From the NCBI GenBank assembly GCA_943736015.1, contig OX031068.1, forward strand, positions 32,918,296-32,982,295: a stretch of DNA of 64,000 nt, written 5' to 3'. How positions within the stretch are numbered: position 1 is the first letter of the stretch; the number at the start of each line of letters is the position of its first letter. The DNA comes from Tridacna crocea (taxonomy: Eukaryota; Mollusca; Bivalvia; Cardiida; Cardiidae). A program made the position numbers and the translations under genes. Of this stretch, positions 1 through 64,000 are shown piece by piece. Below the pieces are notes generated by a model that worked only from the letters and a program-made list of their open reading frames with translations, was not told the origin of the DNA and searched no databases.

Positions 1-185
1 TACGTAAGTGGCACCTGCGAGACAACAGACAACCTAAAAGGGTTTGTTGTCAGGGTAAAAAAAGATTGCAGAAATAAAAAACAGATATTAGAAACTAAGT
101 TCCCTATATTTGACCTATTAAGCAACAGGTGTCGTCTGCTATGAAATGTTCCGTAAGTCGATTTTCGCGGGCACGTAACCGGCAC
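1..185. repeat. Partial monomer at left edge (3' end of a unit)
   Basis: These bases match the last 185 bases of the long-form monomers, for example 2200-2384. They contain sub-repeat R3 and the long form of the boundary motif (GGGCACGT present at about 170-177). The unit is cut only by the window edge. Confidence 0.95.
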
Positions 186-189
186 CTAT
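19..189. repeat. Internal sub-repeat R3 (diverged, about 171 bp)
   Basis: Begins GAGAC like R4 and R5 and ends CACCTAT; it follows the same order of blocks (AGTTCC near the middle, AAGCAACAG, TCGATTTTCGC, CGTAACCGGCAC) but with many differences. It recurs once per monomer (for example at 2218). It is an older relative of the R4-R7 series. Confidence 0.75.
170..177. repeat. 8-bp presence/absence site (GGGCACGT), long form
   Basis: The stretch TTTCGCGGGCACGTAACCGG here is TTTCGCAACCGG in other copies. Long forms occur at the right ends of units 1-11, 13, 21, 22, 24 and 25 and here; short forms at the ends of units 12, 14-20, 23 and 26-29. It explains the two length classes of the monomer. Confidence 0.9.
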
Positions 190-387
190 GAGACGGTAGT
201 CAACGTAAATGGATTTCTCGTCACGGTATAAAGAGATTGGAGAAAAAAAATACACATTGAAAATTTAGTTCCTTTTGTTTGATTTATGCAATAAGAAGCA
301 GTTGCTACTGAAAGAGCCTTCAGTCTTTTTTTAGCCACTTGTCGCATTATTTTCTGGGGTTTTCGCATGAGCGTAACTGGCACATAT
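190..387. repeat. Internal sub-repeat R4 (198 bp)
   Basis: Starts GAGACGGTAGTCAACG and ends GCGTAACTGGCACATAT. Shares with R5-R7 the blocks GGTAGTCAA, GTTTGAT, TATGCAATA, a hairpin then CTTTTTTTAGCCAC, and TCGCATTA. It holds a TATAAA-like string at 227-232. Confidence 0.85.
307..332 (+). other. Hairpin followed by T7 in R4
   Basis: ACTGAA (307-312) and TTCAGT (319-324) form a six-pair stem with loop AGAGCC, then CTTTTTTT. This is one of four related hairpin-T elements in each monomer. Confidence 0.5.
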
Positions 388-565
388 GAGACGGTAGTCA
401 ACATAACTGGGCTTCTTGTTGTGGTTTGAAGATATTAGAAATATTACACTTCAGTTGCCTCTGTTTGATATATGCAATAGGAAGCAACTGAGAGTTTTCA
501 GTCTTTTTTTAGCCACCTGTCACATTCATTTCTGGGGTTTTCGCATGAGCGTAACTGGCACATAT
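388..565. repeat. Internal sub-repeat R5 (178 bp)
   Basis: Same block order as R4 with close similarity, particularly the end (TTTCTGGGGTTTTCGCATG, GCGTAACTGGCACATAT). This is among the least variable parts of the array: very few substitutions are visible from here to about 607 in all copies. Confidence 0.88.
487..510 (+). other. Hairpin followed by T7 in R5
   Basis: ACTGA (487-491) pairs with TCAGT (498-502), loop GAGTTT, then CTTTTTTT. This is the weakest stem of the series. Confidence 0.4.
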
Positions 566-664
566 GTGACGGTAGTCAACGTAACTGGGTTTCTTGTTGC
601 GGTTTAAAGAGATTAGAAAAATTACACTTCAGTTGCCATTGTTTGATATATGCAATAGGAAGTA

Positions 665-690
665 ACTGAAAGAATTTTCAGTCTTTTTTT
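665..690 (+). other. Hairpin followed by T7 in R6
   Basis: ACTGAAA (665-671) and TTTCAGT (676-682) form a perfect seven-pair stem with loop GAAT, then CTTTTTTT. The form resembles an intrinsic terminator, and a T run can also end Pol III transcription, but no start site is recognised upstream. Confidence 0.5.
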
Positions 691-752
691 AGCCACTTGT
701 CGCATTAATTTCTGGTTTTTCTTTTTACACTGTACATTGATCACCTTGGTCT

Positions 753-767
753 ATTGAAAGTTTCAAT
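753..767. other. 15-bp near-palindrome in the R6 tail
   Basis: ATTGAAAGTTTCAAT is a perfect inverted repeat around one central G. The same palindrome recurs in R7 at 1079-1093, so there are two per monomer. Only unit 4 breaks it (T at 7355, R6 copy). It could be a dyad protein site; no specific factor is recognised. Confidence 0.45.
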
Positions 768-813
768 GTGCAGCATTTCTTGTGGGCTGAGTTAGAAAAG
801 CAAATCAAGTAAA

Positions 814-831
814 GGGCTGGGGAGGGGGGGG
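814..831 (+). other. Potential G-quadruplex in R6
   Basis: GGGCTGGGGA followed by eight G supplies four G3 runs with very short loops. Run length differs between copies (about seven or eight G), and units 22 and 26 interrupt it with A. Formation is inferred from the pattern only. Confidence 0.5.
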
Positions 832-987
832 TGCATCGAGGGTTAAAGGGAAGTAATTCTTGCAAGGGGCTTAAAAAGACCAAAACATGAGAGGGTAGTC
901 AATGTAACTGGGTTTCTTGTTGCGGATTGAAGAGATTAGAAAAATTACACTTCAGTTGCCATTGTTTGATATATGCAATAGGAAGTA

Positions 988-1014
988 ACTGAAAAGAGTT
1001 TTCAGTCTTTTTTT
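988..1014 (+). other. Hairpin followed by T7 in R7
   Basis: ACTGAAAA (988-995) and TTTTCAGT (999-1006) form an eight-pair stem with loop GAG, then CTTTTTTT. Units 7 and 10 interrupt the T run with an A, and unit 14 replaces the C by T. Confidence 0.5.
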
Positions 1015-1042
1015 AGCCACTTGTCGCATTAATTTCTGTTGG

Positions 1043-1053
1043 TTTTTTTTTTT
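1043..1053. repeat. Poly(T) tract of variable length
   Basis: Follows CTGTTGG in R7. Length varies from about 9 to 14 T across copies, and in units 19, 23 and 25 the GG is gone, giving 15-17 uninterrupted T. Slippage and sequencing error in homopolymers cannot be separated here. Confidence 0.7.
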
Positions 1054-1139
1054 CACTGTATATTGATTACTTTGGTCTATTGAAAGTTTCAATGTGCAGC
1101 ATTTCTTGTGGGCTGAGTTAAAAAAGCAAATCCAGTAAA

Positions 1140-1156
1140 GGGCTGGGGAGGGGGGG
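1140..1156 (+). other. Potential G-quadruplex in R7
   Basis: GGGCTGGGGA followed by six or seven G, as in R6. The six-G form is found in units 2, 3, 4, 5, 7 and 10 and would leave only a weaker fit. R8 has a related run at 1221-1232 with fewer G tracts. Confidence 0.45.
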
Positions 1157-1215
1157 TGCATCGAGGGTTAAAGGGAAGTAATTCTTGCAAGAGGCTTAAA
1201 AAGACCAAAACATAT

Positions 1216-1290
1216 GAGCTGGGGAGGGGGGGTTGCATCGAGGAATAAAGGGAAGTAATTCTTGCAAGAGGCTTGAAAAGACCAACACAT
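1216..1290. repeat. Internal sub-repeat R8 (truncated, G-rich tail only)
   Basis: GAGCTGGGGAGG to CCAACACATGG repeats only the last about 75 bases of the R6/R7 tail. It marks the right edge of the sub-repeat block; what follows has no similarity to it. Confidence 0.85.
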
Positions 1291-1340
1291 GGCCTTTTAC
1301 GCCCCTATTTTCTTAAATGTGTGAAATCTGGCATGTGTGG

Positions 1341-1355
1341 ATGGCAGTTTGCCAA
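1341..1355. promoter_or_regulatory. NF1-like palindrome
   Basis: ATGGCAGTTTGCCAA fits TTGGC-N5-GCCAA at nine of ten defined positions. It lies about 40 bases beyond the CATAAAAG box in the minus-strand direction. NF1/CTF binding is inferred. Confidence 0.3.
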
Positions 1356-1393
1356 GGACTGCACAGCAGCCTTTACAGAAGACTTTAAATCCA

Positions 1394-1401
1394 CTTTTAT
1401 G
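1394..1401 (-). promoter_or_regulatory. TATA-like CATAAAAG box on the minus strand
   Basis: CTTTTATG on the plus strand reads CATAAAAG on the minus strand. It lies about 35-40 bases on the far side of the E2F-type site from the CCAAT cluster, so the minus-strand order is CCAAT x4, E2F, TATA-like, as in a short promoter. A start about 25-35 bases further would be near 1360-1370, and transcription would run through R8-R4. No transcript evidence is available. Confidence 0.3.
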
Positions 1402-1434
1402 CCGTTTTTTTTACTGTTTTAAATCGATAAATTA

Positions 1435-1460
1435 GGGCGCCATTTTGGCGCGAATTTGAA
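1435..1460. promoter_or_regulatory. E2F-type inverted repeat with adjacent CHR-like TTTGAA
   Basis: GCGCCA-TTT-TGGCGC at 1437-1451 is a perfect 6-bp inverted repeat. Its right part, TTTGGCGC at 1444-1451, matches the E2F consensus TTTSGCGC exactly; the left half read on the minus strand is AATGGCGC. On the minus strand CAAAATGGCGCC also resembles a YY1 site. TTTGAA, the CHR core of CDE/CHR promoters, follows at 1455-1460 after three bases. The cell-cycle role is inferred from motif identity alone. Confidence 0.45.
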
Positions 1461-1468
1461 GCTCTCTG

Positions 1469-1579
1469 ATTGGCTGTTGAAATTTCTAAAGTCTTCTCTG
1501 ATTGGCTGTTGGTTTTCATTCTGATTTCCTTAAAGCTTCTCTGATTGGATAATTTCAGAGCGGGAAGAGATTTGATTGG
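1469..1579 (-). promoter_or_regulatory. Cluster of four inverted CCAAT boxes (NF-Y type)
   Basis: ATTGG, which is CCAAT on the minus strand, occurs at 1469-1473, 1501-1505, 1544-1548 and 1575-1579. Three are in the context TGATTGGCTG and one in CTGATTGGAT; the NF-Y consensus is about CTGATTGGYY. Starts are 32, 43 and 31 bases apart, and a decayed CTGATTT lies at 1521-1527 between the second and third. Spacing of 31-33 bp between CCAAT boxes is known from vertebrate G2/M promoters. The cluster is preserved in nearly every copy; units 16 and 18 lose the second box (ATTAG). Binding is inferred only; a simple local duplication of TCTCTGATTGG could also create it. Confidence 0.5.
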
Positions 1580-1682
1580 CTGATGGGAAGGGGGGGAATA
1601 TCTGTTTATTCTTATTAACCTTTTACCGCACAATGACGCCTTTTAACACCCCTGAAAGAGAAGGCTTTTGGAAATAATCTGA

Positions 1683-1724
1683 GGAAAGGAGACAATGCAG
1701 GTTACCAGCATTTTCTCCTTTTCC
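1683..1724. other. Long imperfect hairpin
   Basis: GGAAAGGAGA (1683-1692) pairs with TCTCCTTTTCC (1714-1724, one extra T), then AATGC (1694-1698) with GCATT (1708-1712), leaving the loop AGGTTACCA. Fifteen base pairs can form. Class C units carry C to T at the position equivalent to 1717, which keeps a G-U pair in RNA. Units 23 and 25 carry C to A at 1718, which breaks one pair. Whether it forms in RNA or DNA is unknown. Confidence 0.55.
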
Positions 1725-1818
1725 CACAATGTTTTCTACCCTATCAAAGAAGCAATTGATTTTTAGTTATTCTTACATCTTATTGTATCTTTATGGCCTA
1801 CTTCTAGATTCTTTTATC

Positions 1819-1849
1819 GGAAAAAGTTTCCGCAACAGCAAACGGTTGC
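1819..1849. other. Two adjacent small hairpins
   Basis: GGAAA-AAG-TTTCC (1819-1831) is directly followed by GCAAC-AGCAAACG-GTTGC (1832-1849). Both are short five-pair stems and could be chance; a third five-pair stem, CCCTG/CAGGG, lies at 1939-1957. Confidence 0.35.
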
Positions 1850-2099
1850 TTCTGAATTTTATATTTTTGCGCAGCGATTAAACATAAAATTGACTTTTGA
1901 CTCGCGCAGTCGTCAAAATTGGTTCAATGTTTTCATGACCCTGGTAAGAAAACAGGGAAAAATTTTGTTTACCTGTCCTTGAATTGTACAATAGGTATCA
2001 GTTGCCTCATAAAGTGTTGAAGTTGATTTTACGATTTTATGCGTAGCACGTAAGTCATGTATGCGTGAGATGGTCACGTAACCAAACCAATGGCCCTAG

Positions 2100-2122
2100 T
2101 GAGAGAAAAAGAAAAAGAAAAA
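2100..2122 (+). repeat. Purine tract (GAAAAA repeats)
   Basis: GTGAGAGAAAAAGAAAAAGAAAAATCC in part: about 22 consecutive purines with a six-base period in R2. It is constant in length across copies. Confidence 0.6.
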
Positions 2123-2158
2123 TCCATATAATTGACTTAAGCAACAGTTGGCGTCTGC

Positions 2159-2166
2159 TATAAAAT
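2159..2166 (+). promoter_or_regulatory. TATA-like TATAAAAT on the plus strand
   Basis: CTATAAAATA within R2 matches the TATA consensus well, but no CCAAT or other element stands next to it and AT-rich DNA gives such strings by chance. Listed as a weak candidate. Confidence 0.15.
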
Positions 2167-2384
2167 ATTCCGTCAGTCGATTTTTCATATTTTTGCGGAT
2201 ACGTAAGTGGCACCTGCGAGACAACAGACAACCTAAAAGGGTTTGTTGTCAGGGTAAAAAAAGATTGCAGAAATAAAAAACAGATATTAGAAACTAAGTT
2301 CCCTATATTTGACCTATTAAGCAACAGGTGTCGTCTGCTATGAAATGTTCCGTAAGTCGATTTTCGCGGGCACGTAACCGGCAC

Positions 2385-4583
2385 CTATGAGACGGTAGTC
2401 AACGTAAATGGATTTCTCGTCACGGTATAAAGAGATTGGAGAAAAAAAATACACATTGAAAATTTAGTTCCTTTTGTTTGATTTATGCAATAAGAAGCAG
2501 TTGCTACTGAAAGAGCCTTCAGTCTTTTTTTAGCCACTTGTCGCATTATTTTCTGGGGTTTTCGCATGAGCGTAACTGGCACATATGAGACGGTAGTCAA
2601 CATAACTGGGCTTCTTGTTGTGGTTTGAAGATATTAGAAATATTACACTTCAGTTGCCTCTGTTTGATATATGCAATAGGAAGCAACTGAGAGTTTTCAG
2701 TCTTTTTTTAGCCACCTGTCACATTCATTTCTGGGGTTTTCGCATGAGCGTAACTGGCACATATGTGACGGTAGTCAACGTAACTGGGTTTCTTGTTGCG
2801 GTTTAAAGAGATTAGAAAAATTACACTTCAGTTGCCATTGTTTGATATATGCAATAGGAAGTAACTGAAAGAATTTTCAGTCTTTTTTTAGCCACTTGTC
2901 GCACTAATTTCTGGTTTTTCTTTTTACACTGTACATTGATCACCTTGGTCTATTGAAAGTTTCAATGTGCAGCATTTCTTGTGGGCTGAGTTAGAAAAGC
3001 AAATCAAGTAAAGGGCTGGGGAGGGGGGGTGCATCGAGGGTTAAAGGGAAGTAATTCTTGCAAGGGGCTTAAAAAGACCAAAACATGAGAGGGTAGTCAA
3101 TGTAACTGGGTTTCTTGTTGCGGATTGAAGAGATTAGAAAAATTACACTTCAGTTGCCATTGTTTGATATATGCAATAGGAAGTAACTGAAAAGAGTTTT
3201 CAGTCTTTTTTTAGCCACTTGTCGCATTAATTTCTGTTGGTTTTTTTTTTTTTCACTGTATATTGATCACTTTGGTCTATTGAAAGTTTCAATGTGCAGC
3301 ATTTCTTGTGGGCTGAGTTAAAAAAGCAAATCCAGTAAAGGGCTGGGGAGGGGGGTGCATCGAGGGTTAAAGGGAAGTAATTCTTGCAAGAGGCTTAAAA
3401 AGACCAAAACATATGAGCTGGGGAGGGGGGGTTGCATCGAGGAATAAAGGGAAGTAATTCTTGCAAGAGGCTTGAAAAGACCAACACATGGCCTTTTACG
3501 CCCCTATTTTCTTAAATGTGTGAAATCTGGCATGTGTGGATGGCAGTTTGCCAAGGACTGCACAGCAGCCTTTACAGAAGACTTTAAATCCACTTTTATG
3601 CCGTTTTTTTTACTGTTTTAAATCGATAAATTAGGGCGCCATTTTGGCGCGAATTTGAAGCTCTCTGATTGGCTGTTGAAATTTCTAAAGTCTTCTCTGA
3701 TTGGCTGTTGGTTTTCATTCTGATTTCCTTAAAGCTTCTCTGATTGGATAATTTCAGAGCGGGAAGAGATTTGATTGGCTGATGGGAAGGGGGGGAATAT
3801 CTGTTTATTCTTATTAACCTTTTACCGCACAATGACGCCTTTTAACACCCCTGAAAGAGAAGGCTTTTGGAAATAATCTGAGGAAAGGAGACAATGCAGG
3901 TTACCAGCATTTTCTCCTTTTCCCACAATGTTTTCTACCCTATCAAAGAAGCAATTGATTTTTAGTTATTCTTACATCTTATTGTATCTTTATGGCCTAC
4001 TTCTAGATTCTTTTATCGGAAAAAGTTTCCGCAACAGCAAACGGTTGCTTCTGAATTTTATATTTTTGCGCAGCGATTAAACATAAAATTGACTTTTGAC
4101 TCGCGCAGTCGTCAAAATTGGTTCAATGTTTTCATGACCCTGGTAAGAAAACAGGGACAAATTTTGTTTACCTGTCCTTGAATTGTACAATAGGTATCAG
4201 TTGCCTCATAAAGTGTTGAAGTTGATTTTACGATTTTATGCGTAGCACGTAAGTCATGTATGCGTGAGATGGTCACGTAACCAAACCAATGGCCCTAGTG
4301 AGAGAAAAAGAAAAAGAAAAATCCATATAATTGACTTAAGCAACAGTTGGCGTCTGCTATAAAATATTCCGTCAGTCGATTTTTCATGTTTTTGCGGATA
4401 CGTAAGTGGCACCTGCGAGACAACAGACAACCTAAAAGGGTTTGTTGTCAGGGTAAAAAAAGATTGCAGAAATAAAAAACAGATATTAGAAACTAAGTTC
4501 CCTATATTTGACCTATTAAGCAACAGGTGTCGTCTGCTATGAAATGTTCCGTAAGTCGATTTTCGCGGGCACGTAACCGGCAC
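2385..4583. repeat. Monomer 2 (2199 bp)
   Basis: Long boundary form. Private changes: C at 2904 (GCACTAATT instead of GCATTAATT) and C at 4158 in the AGGGAAAAAT stretch. The second G run is six long, as in units 3, 4, 5, 7 and 10. Confidence 0.95.
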
Positions 4584-6781
4584 CTATGAGACGGTAGTCA
4601 ACGTAAATGGATTTCTCGTCACGGTATAAAGAGATTGGAGAAAAAAAATACACATTGAAAATTTAGTTCCTTTTGTTTGATTTATGCAATAAGAAGCAGT
4701 TGCTACTGAAAGAGCCTTCAGTCTTTTTTTAGCCACTTGTCGCATTATTTTCTGGGGTTTTCGCATGAGCGTAACTGGCACATATGAGACGGTAGTCAAC
4801 ATAACTGGGCTTCTTGTTGTGGTTTGAAGATATTAGAAATATTACACTTCAGTTGCCTCTGTTTGATATATGCAATAGGAAGCAACTGAGAGTTTTCAGT
4901 CTTTTTTTAGCCACCTGTCACATTCATTTCTGGGGTTTTCGCATGAGCGTAACTGGCACATATGTGACGGTAGTCAACGTAACTGGGTTTCTTGTTGCGG
5001 TTTAAAGAGATTAGAAAAATTACACTTCAGTTGCCATTGTTTGATATATGCAATAGGAAGTAACTGAAAGAATTTTCAGTCTTTTTTTAGCCACTTGTCG
5101 CATTAATTTCTGGTTTTTCTTTTTACACTGTACATTGATCACCTTGGTCTATTGAAAGTTTCAATGTGCAGCATTTCTTGTGGGCTGAGTTAGAAAAGCA
5201 AATCAAGTAAAGGGCTGGGGAGGGGGGGTGCATCGAGGGTTAAAGGGAAGTAATTCTTGCAAGGGGCTTAAAAAGACCAAAACATGAGAGGGTAGTCAAT
5301 GTAACTGGGTTTCTTGTTGCGGATTGAAGAGATTAGAAAAATTACACTTCAGTTGCCATTGTTTGATATATGCAATAGGAAGTAACTGAAAAGAGTTTTC
5401 AGTCTTTTTTTAGCCACTTGTCGCATTAATTTCTGTTGGTTTTTTTTTTTTTCACTGTATATTGATCACTTTGGTCTATTGAAAGTTTCAATGTGCAGCA
5501 TTTCTTGTGGGCTGAGTTAAAAAAGCAAATCCAGTAAAGGGCTGGGGAGGGGGGTGCATCGAGGGTTAAAGGGAAGTAATTCTTGCAAGAGGCTTAAAAA
5601 GACCAAAACATATGAGCTGGGGAGGGGGGGTTGCATCGAGGAATAAAGGGAAGTAATTCTTGCAAGAGGCTTGAAAAGACCAACACATGGCCTTTTACGC
5701 CCCTATTTTCTTAAATGTGTGAAATCTGGCATGTGTGGATGGCAGTTTGCCAAGGACTGCACAGCAGCCTTTACAGAAGACTTTAAATCCACTTTTATGC
5801 CGTTTTTTTTACTGTTTTAAATCGATAAATTAGGGCGCCATTTTGGCGCGAATTTGAAGCTCTCTGATTGGCTGTTGAAATTTCTAAAGTCTTCTCTGAT
5901 TGGCTGTTGGTTTTCATTCTGATTTCCTTAAAGCTTCTCTGATTGGATAATTTCAGAGCGGGAAGAGATTTGATTGGCTGATGGGAAGGGGGGGAATATC
6001 TGTTTATTCTTATTAACCTTTTACCGCACAATGACGCCTTTAACACCCCTGAAAGAGAAGGCTTTTGGAAATAATCTGAGGAAAGGAGACAATGCAGGTT
6101 ACCAGCATTTTCTCCTTTTCCCACAATGTTTTCTACCCTATCAAAGAAGCAATTGATTTTTAGTTATTCTTACATCTTATTGTATCTTTATGGCCTACTT
6201 CTAGATTCTTTTATCGGAAAAAGTTTCCGCAACAGCAAACGGTTGCTTCTGAATTTTATATTTTTGCGCAGCGATTAAACATAAAATTGACTTTTGACTC
6301 GCGCAGTCGTCAAAATTGGTTCAATGTTTTCATGACCCTGGTAAGAAAACAGGGAAAAATTTTGTTTACCTGTCCTTGAATTGTACAATAGGTATCAGTT
6401 GCCTCATAAAGTGTTGAAGTTGATTTTACGATTTTATGCGTAGCACGTAAGTCATGTATGCGTGAGATGGTCACGTAACCAAACCAATGGCCCTAGTGAG
6501 AGAAAAAGAAAAAGAAAAATCCATATAATTGACTTAAGCAACAGTTGGCGTCTGCTATAAAATATTCCGTCAGTCGATTTTTCATGTTTTTGCGGATACG
6601 TAAGTGGCACCTGCGAGACAACAGACAACCTAAAAGGGTTTGTTGTCAGGGTAAAAAAAGATTGCAGAAATAAAAAACAGATATTAGAAACTAAGTTCCC
6701 TATATTTGACCTATTAAGAAACAGGTGTCGTCTGCTATGAAATGTTCCGTAAGTCGATTTTCGCGGGCACGTAACCGGCAC
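4584..6781. repeat. Monomer 3 (2198 bp)
   Basis: Long boundary form. One T is lost in the CCTTTTAAC run near 6039-6041, which changes every reading frame through that point. A private A at 6719 replaces C in AAGCAACAG. Confidence 0.95.
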
Positions 6782-63871: not shown

Positions 63872-64000
63872 CTATGAGACGGTAGTCAACGTAAATGGAT
63901 TTCTCGTCACGGTATAAAGAGATTGGAGAAAAAAAATACACATTGAAAATTTAGTTCCTTTTGTTTGATTTATGCAATAAGAAGCAGTTGCTACTGAAAG
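63872..64000. repeat. Partial monomer at right edge (5' end of a unit)
   Basis: First 129 bases of another copy, cut by the window edge within sub-repeat R4. The array clearly continues. Confidence 0.95.

Follow-up and report, generated by a model that had tools for sequence, protein, structure and literature searches.

A large satellite DNA family of Tridacna crocea with a probably inherited CCAAT/TATA-like module and an E2F match that appears to have arisen later in one branch

The stretch of Tridacna crocea DNA analysed here, which we call the window, is 64,000 nucleotides long (C13:32918296-32982295 in a 1.05-Gb assembly of 31 contigs) and is filled from position 1 to position 64000 by a tandem satellite array. 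The array contains 29 anchored copies of a monomer of ~2199 bp (or ~2191 bp), with a period of 2190-2202 bp across the 28 intervals between anchors, and an alignment of the 28 complete monomers has 65 variable columns out of 2203. An 8-bp insertion/deletion at alignment columns 935-942 divides these monomers into 16 with the 8 bp and 12 without; towards the later half of the window the monomers without it follow one another in runs, which provides a marker of the exchange history of the array. Nested sub-repeats of ~178, ~324, and ~77 bp lie within the monomer (window 2-1290), and part of them is missing from the 1.5-1.7-kb subfamilies that we examined.

NF-Y and TATA motifs were called by their known forms, which for NF-Y include RRCCAATSR. 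The E2F and CHR forms were taken from PMC5716687. Each monomer of the window carries the same group of promoter-type motifs, given here by their coordinates in one copy. A TATA-like box, CTTTTATG on the plus strand and CATAAAAG on the minus strand, lies at 1394-1401; an exact E2F consensus, TTTGGCGC, lies at 1444-1451 on the plus strand, and the CHR-type hexamer TTTGAA, also on the plus strand, lies 3 nt from it at 1455-1460. All three are present in 29 of 29 copies. Four CCAAT boxes read on the minus strand: box 1 (1469-1473) and box 2 (1501-1505), each within AGCCAATCAGAGA, box 3 (1544-1548) within ATCCAATCAGAGA, and box 4 (1575-1579) within AGCCAATCAAATC. Box 2 is found in 27 of the 29 copies and reads ATTAG in the other two, and the remaining three boxes are found in every copy. 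On the plus strand ATTGG starts at 1469, 1501, 1544, and 1575, giving intervals of 32, 43, and 31 bp; three of the four boxes match the longer form RRCCAATSR, and on the minus strand box 1 precedes CATAAAAG by 67 bp. The original prediction, which described four minus-strand CCAAT boxes within 186 bp, two of their three intervals being 31-32 bp, together with an exact E2F consensus, TTTGAA, and a TATA-like box, is thus borne out as a description of the window, apart from box 2 in two copies. With the change that creates the E2F match, a small inverted repeat at 1437-1451, GCGCCATTTTGGCGC, becomes complete as well; it folds as a hairpin with a 6-bp stem, a fold equalled in 3 of 200 shuffles. 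Read on the minus strand, the kept core is AAAATGGCGCC, which we take to be close to a YY1-type site.

We searched the repeat for known genes and for relatives elsewhere. An Rfam scan (window 1-6600 and positions 1-3600 of locus L071) gave no family near its gathering score, a tRNA search of the satellite monomer found none, and a Pfam search of six open frames of the monomer gave no domain match. The array has no family match of the kind that marks a multicopy structural RNA gene array (snRNA, 5S, tRNA, or SL RNA). Exact-pattern searches with the window core against viral contigs and with a 22-mer of the CCAAT block against bacterial and archaeal genomes gave no match, nor did a search of one monomer against plasmids, and within the terms searched the open literature yielded no satellite with this combination of motifs.

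The sole Rfam match, BSR0626, scores 27 bits where the gathering score is 155, and sits on a copy of a dispersed palindromic element, which occupies 1614-1757 and recurs at the same place in every monomer. The element is ~130-150 bp long with a palindromic core, and window 1600-1770 matches 24 of 36 stretches of the same genome (86,234 bp) that we had picked by hand as free of the satellite. Two dispersed copies are near-perfect hairpins (z about -10), and the satellite copy folds weakly (z -2.6). Positions 1680-1751 are the quietest 72 bp of the aligned part of the monomer: 3 of 72 columns vary among ten representatives, against 218 of 787 elsewhere, a quietness reached in 2 of 5000 permutations and, on the 13-lineage tree, in 64 of 5000.

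The array in the window is one of many. A 25-mer core, GGCGCCATTTTGGCGCGAATTTGAA, which encloses the stretch common to the window type and the commonest family type (GGCGCCATTTTGG, 1436-1448), occurs 5652 times in the genome with at most two mismatches, against 0 for the reversed control. This count is a lower bound for the family because copies more than two changes away from the window core are missed, for example the C5 core type, which has three. The original prediction spoke of at least 29 copies; the window has 29, and the genome has far more, at least 5652 cores. Among the matches listed, arrays are found on at least eight large contigs (C1, C2, C3, C5, C7, C8, C11, and C13). The monomers that we cut out are 1479-2215 bp long, with unit types of ~2199, 2214, 2049, 1675, and 1480 bp, and at 1.5-2.2 kb per unit the core count would put the family at roughly 1% of the genome. 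With head-to-tail tandem units, uniformity within arrays, and chromosome-related subfamilies on several chromosomes, the repeat is a satellite DNA family.

Hits on C13 fall into a minus-strand block at 30.2-30.5 Mb, a plus-strand block at 32.67-33.03 Mb, and another minus-strand block at 33.5-33.6 Mb, separated by other DNA where samples were taken, and the C7 blocks likewise lie within a few Mb of one another (13.3-17.1 Mb). This proximity only suggests a centromeric satellite. The CENP-B box has the form TTCGNNNNANNCGGG, and a search of the monomer for this form gave no match. An open frame of 767 aa at C13:31.000 Mb (L015) presumably resembles a BEL/Pao-type retroelement. Two stretches of C1, at 24.838-24.843 Mb (L078) and 33.164-33.168 Mb (L079), are diverged relics of satellite arrays and could help with dating and with tracing how the motifs decay; the match in L078 starts at locus position 517, corresponding to monomer position 1321.

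Comparison of subfamilies separates the E2F match from the rest of the cluster. The commonest core of the family, GGCGCCATTTTGGAGCGATTTTGAA (the GGAGCGATTTTGAA type), has 4163 exact copies and reads TTTGGAGC at the E2F position, with no TTTSSCGC, and the 16-mer joining E2F match and CHR hexamer, TTGGCGCGAATTTGAA, has 908 exact occurrences. The E2F match is present in all cores of the window (29/29), in those elsewhere on C13 (26/26) and in young C7 arrays (15/15), in 9 of 10 cores on C8, and in 2 of 11 at C7:15.57-15.59 Mb. It is absent from all 26 cores on C3 (0/15), C2 (0/2), C5 (0/3), and C1 (0/6). A tree built from one to three monomers of each array groups the carriers in one clade (support 1.000), so a single gain is the simplest history. 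Judged from these comparisons, the E2F match is a late, derived gain in the branch on C7, C8, and C13, and not a feature of the repeat family as a whole.

The CHR-type hexamer has a different distribution, being present in 117 of 117 cores (TTTGAA in 115 and TTTAAA in two), a count covering cores that have CCATTT and at most seven substitutions, loci L029 and L030 left aside. With TTGGCGC beside TTTGAA and CCAAT boxes nearby, the satellite resembles the DREAM-bound CDE/CHR and E2F/CLE elements described in PMC5716687. The pairs described there have a 4-nt spacer, whereas in the satellite the E2F match ends at 1451 and TTTGAA starts at 1455, leaving 3 nt, so the pairing does not have the spacing of the typical cell-cycle element that had been proposed. 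Nor are both halves kept across the family: the CHR hexamer is, and the E2F half is missing from the commonest core.

The number of CCAAT boxes is mostly kept. Four or five boxes are found in 107 of 112 monomers outside C1 and three in the other five; this tally takes in those monomers whose core form was listed and whose end mark could be recognised, on contigs other than C11, and counts one of them twice (L029 overlaps L031). The C1 relic arrays have one to five boxes over six monomers, box 1 being absent from some, and two of the three monomers at 24.84 Mb have five and four. Spacing differs by subfamily: the main pattern is 32/43/31 on C7, C8, and C13, 19/67/31 on C3, 19/68/31 on C2, 31/67/31 on C5, and 31/67/39 or 31/67/31/8 in old C7 arrays. 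Phasing is therefore not a kept feature, and the helical 31-32-bp phasing predicted from the window does not extend to these other subfamilies. The constant, phased spacing of an NF-Y-driven G2/M promoter is not what the family has.

Comparison of subfamilies is also a within-genome version of the conservation check that the original prediction proposed for related species, and in it the boxes have no excess conservation. When changes are counted on a tree of 13 lineages, 5 fall within the 20 sites of the CCAAT pentamers, 26 within the 99 other sites of the CCAAT block, and 307 within the 738 sites elsewhere; of 20,000 randomly drawn sets of four pentamers, 5812 do as well. Without the C1 relics the figures are 1 in 20, 12 in 99, and 141 in 738, with 4429 of 20,000 random sets doing as well. 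The 186-bp block does not stand out: diversity is as low or lower in 387 of 673 windows, and as few tree changes are seen in 177 of 671 windows with the C1 relics and in 196 of 671 without them. In these tests, then, the pentamers have no conservation beyond that of the intervening bases, and that of the 186-bp block is nothing out of the ordinary. Taken together, the sites of the CCAAT block have fewer changes than the average (31 in 119 sites, compared with 338 in 857), and the block may be under weak constraint, which could escape a test with 13 lineages and 20 pentamer sites. All these tests were confined to window 1321-2179 because the 901-950 bin is misaligned, probably from duplicated sub-repeats.

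Other parts of the cluster vary little. The box CATAAAAG has 0 changes in 8 sites over nine non-C1 lineages and two when the C1 relics are included, and when four representatives of the closest subfamilies are compared, no column varies over the 146 bp of window 1415-1560, a run matched in 39 of 5000 permutations. Two apparent signs of selection were set aside. Comparison of four close subfamilies had suggested that the block is under constraint, and this signal was gone after we added the C1, C2, C3, C5, and old C7 lineages. A 25-mer from the body of the monomer occurs 1255 times, against 5652 for the core, a rarity that we did not take as evidence of selection because the T runs of the body segment vary in length between subfamilies, making it a poor control.

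The clustering of CCAAT boxes exceeds chance. When one monomer was shuffled 4000 times with its dinucleotides preserved, at least four same-strand CCAAT fell within 112 bp in 18 shuffles and within 186 bp in 69; four CCAAT together with an E2F match within 186 bp occurred in two, and an E2F match within 20 nt of TTTGAA or TTCAAA in 67. No window with four CCAAT in 112 bp was found in the 36 non-satellite stretches, where three in 112 bp had 3 start points. The motif list is post hoc, however, and the 29 near-identical copies count as one observation. The total of CCAAT per monomer is not raised (seven, against a shuffle mean of 6.15, with 41% of shuffles reaching seven), and a lone E2F match (TTTSSCGC) is unremarkable, being found in 21% of shuffles.

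Nor are the four boxes independent of one another, because boxes 1-3 share sequence. The units carrying them (1455-1561) are probably diverged local duplications: boxes 1 and 2 have 17 identical bases in common, TCTCTGATTGGCTGTTG, and unit 3 has TCTCTGATTGG in common with both. The score of each pair of units was reached by 0 of 1000 single-base shuffles, a comparison in which five matching bases are built in, the units having been cut around ATTGG. The multiplicity of CCAAT thus probably comes from a short unit that was duplicated locally. In the 36 non-satellite stretches the extended motif TGATTGGCT/AGCCAATCA is found six times, ~9x the expectation from base frequencies alone, and the promoters or dispersed repeats of this genome may be rich in it.

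The histone genes of the same genome offer a point of comparison for the promoter-like layout. The cluster at C13:7.05-7.47 Mb contains core histone genes in many repeats ~9.4-9.7 kb apart and in both orientations. One 6.1-kb piece of it (L082, C13:7.114-7.120 Mb) has H3, H4, H2B, and H2A frames, named from their first residues, each preceded within 300 bp by one to three CCAAT/ATTGG boxes; TATA boxes (TATATAAA) lie upstream of H2B and H2A, and CATAAATA upstream of H3. CCAAT upstream of TATA is thus a real promoter layout in the species, and the satellite block, with CCAAT boxes upstream of a TATA-like box, resembles it, best on the minus strand. The histone promoters differ in having coding sequence behind them and no TTTSSCGC (searched in the 6.1-kb piece), whereas no recognised gene follows the satellite block. 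The promoter-like reading of the original prediction survives in part: the cluster is real and its CCAAT/TATA-like layout resembles that of the histone promoters, but the E2F match belongs to one clade and the phasing is not kept.

We consider it probable that this is satellite DNA with an inherited CCAAT/TATA-like module, copied along with the family, and that the E2F match came later in the C7/C8/C13 branch. A reading that asks more of the module is that it works as a minus-strand Pol II promoter for a non-coding satellite RNA, in which NF-Y and the TATA-like box would set a start near 1365 and E2F would modulate transcription only on C7, C8, and C13. The position of box 1 relative to CATAAAAG, the upstream boxes of the histone genes, the four or five boxes kept by most non-C1 monomers, and the TATA-like box kept by non-C1 lineages all fit this reading, and since the species' own histone genes use CCAAT upstream of TATA, the satellite may have promoter activity on the minus strand. 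Against it, the pentamers have no excess conservation, the monomer has no recognised RNA and no protein domain in the frames tested, and CATAAAAG is not a perfect TATA box; on balance we regard a working promoter of this kind as unlikely. A bolder version, in which an active minus-strand promoter in a centromere-associated satellite makes non-coding RNA and the E2F gain tied this transcription to the cell cycle on C7, C8, and C13 and helped the branch to spread, strikes us as quite improbable; if it were true, satellite arrays that have a cell-cycle switch and arrays that lack one would lend themselves to comparison within a single nucleus.

The arrays might instead serve not as promoters but as a platform or sink, thousands of CCAAT sites holding NF-Y (and, in one subfamily, E2F/LIN54 complexes as well) and so shaping heterochromatin or a centromere. 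Multiplying the cores by the boxes per unit would give on the order of 20,000 CCAAT boxes, the blocks within C13 (30.2-33.6 Mb) and those within C7 lie close together, and for mouse pericentromeres PMC4363358 presents iterated transcription-factor binding as a model of heterochromatin formation. The CCAAT pentamers are not specially kept, however, and an E2F/DREAM sink, as put forward by the original prediction, sits badly with a commonest core that lacks the E2F match, as do the C1, C2, C3, and C5 cores read; we hold a platform of either kind to be improbable. That the whole cluster is a coincidence of short motifs in AT-rich DNA, magnified by 29-fold repetition, draws support from the TTTSSCGC matches found by chance in 21% of shuffles, from the post hoc motif list, and from the 29 copies amounting to one observation. 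It fits poorly with the rarity of four same-strand CCAAT boxes in 112 bp, both in shuffles and in 86 kb of other DNA, and with three of four boxes conforming to RRCCAATSR, and we regard it as very improbable.

The history that we favour, that of a module inherited with the satellite, would run as follows. The window is part of one array; the tandem satellite family to which it belongs is large, with arrays on at least eight large contigs. An old CCAAT/TATA-like module, which may itself derive from a promoter, would have been inherited at the origin of the family and then copied with each unit, several of its CCAAT boxes having been made by local duplication of a short unit. Unequal exchange and conversion would keep each array uniform, and the boxes therefore look conserved inside an array. 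The E2F match would have arisen later, in the branch now on C7, C8, and C13. Under this history the minus strand may be transcribed weakly or occasionally, and a dedicated cell-cycle function is probably absent: neither a dedicated cell-cycle promoter nor an E2F/DREAM sink is supported by the sequence comparisons. The kept number of boxes, the 146-bp invariant run, the CHR hexamer, and the unchanged CATAAAAG would fit a functional module, but the sites are few and the related arrays are not independent.

Satellites of this general kind are known from other animals. The TCAST satellite of Tribolium (PMC3411249) and the mouse pericentromeric satellite (PMC4363358), examples of long-monomer satellite or macrosatellite DNA with transcription-factor motifs, resemble the Tridacna repeat in having arrays on several chromosomes, uniform within and with subfamilies between, and regulatory-type motifs. 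The Tridacna satellite differs from them in its 1.5-2.2-kb unit with a CCAAT cluster. Homogenised arrays make any motif seem perfectly conserved, which calls for caution wherever motifs are read from a single array, and comparison of subfamilies within the same genome separates what is inherited from what is maintained. If the arrays are transcribed, the subfamilies with and without the E2F match would constitute a ready-made test of motif-driven satellite transcription.
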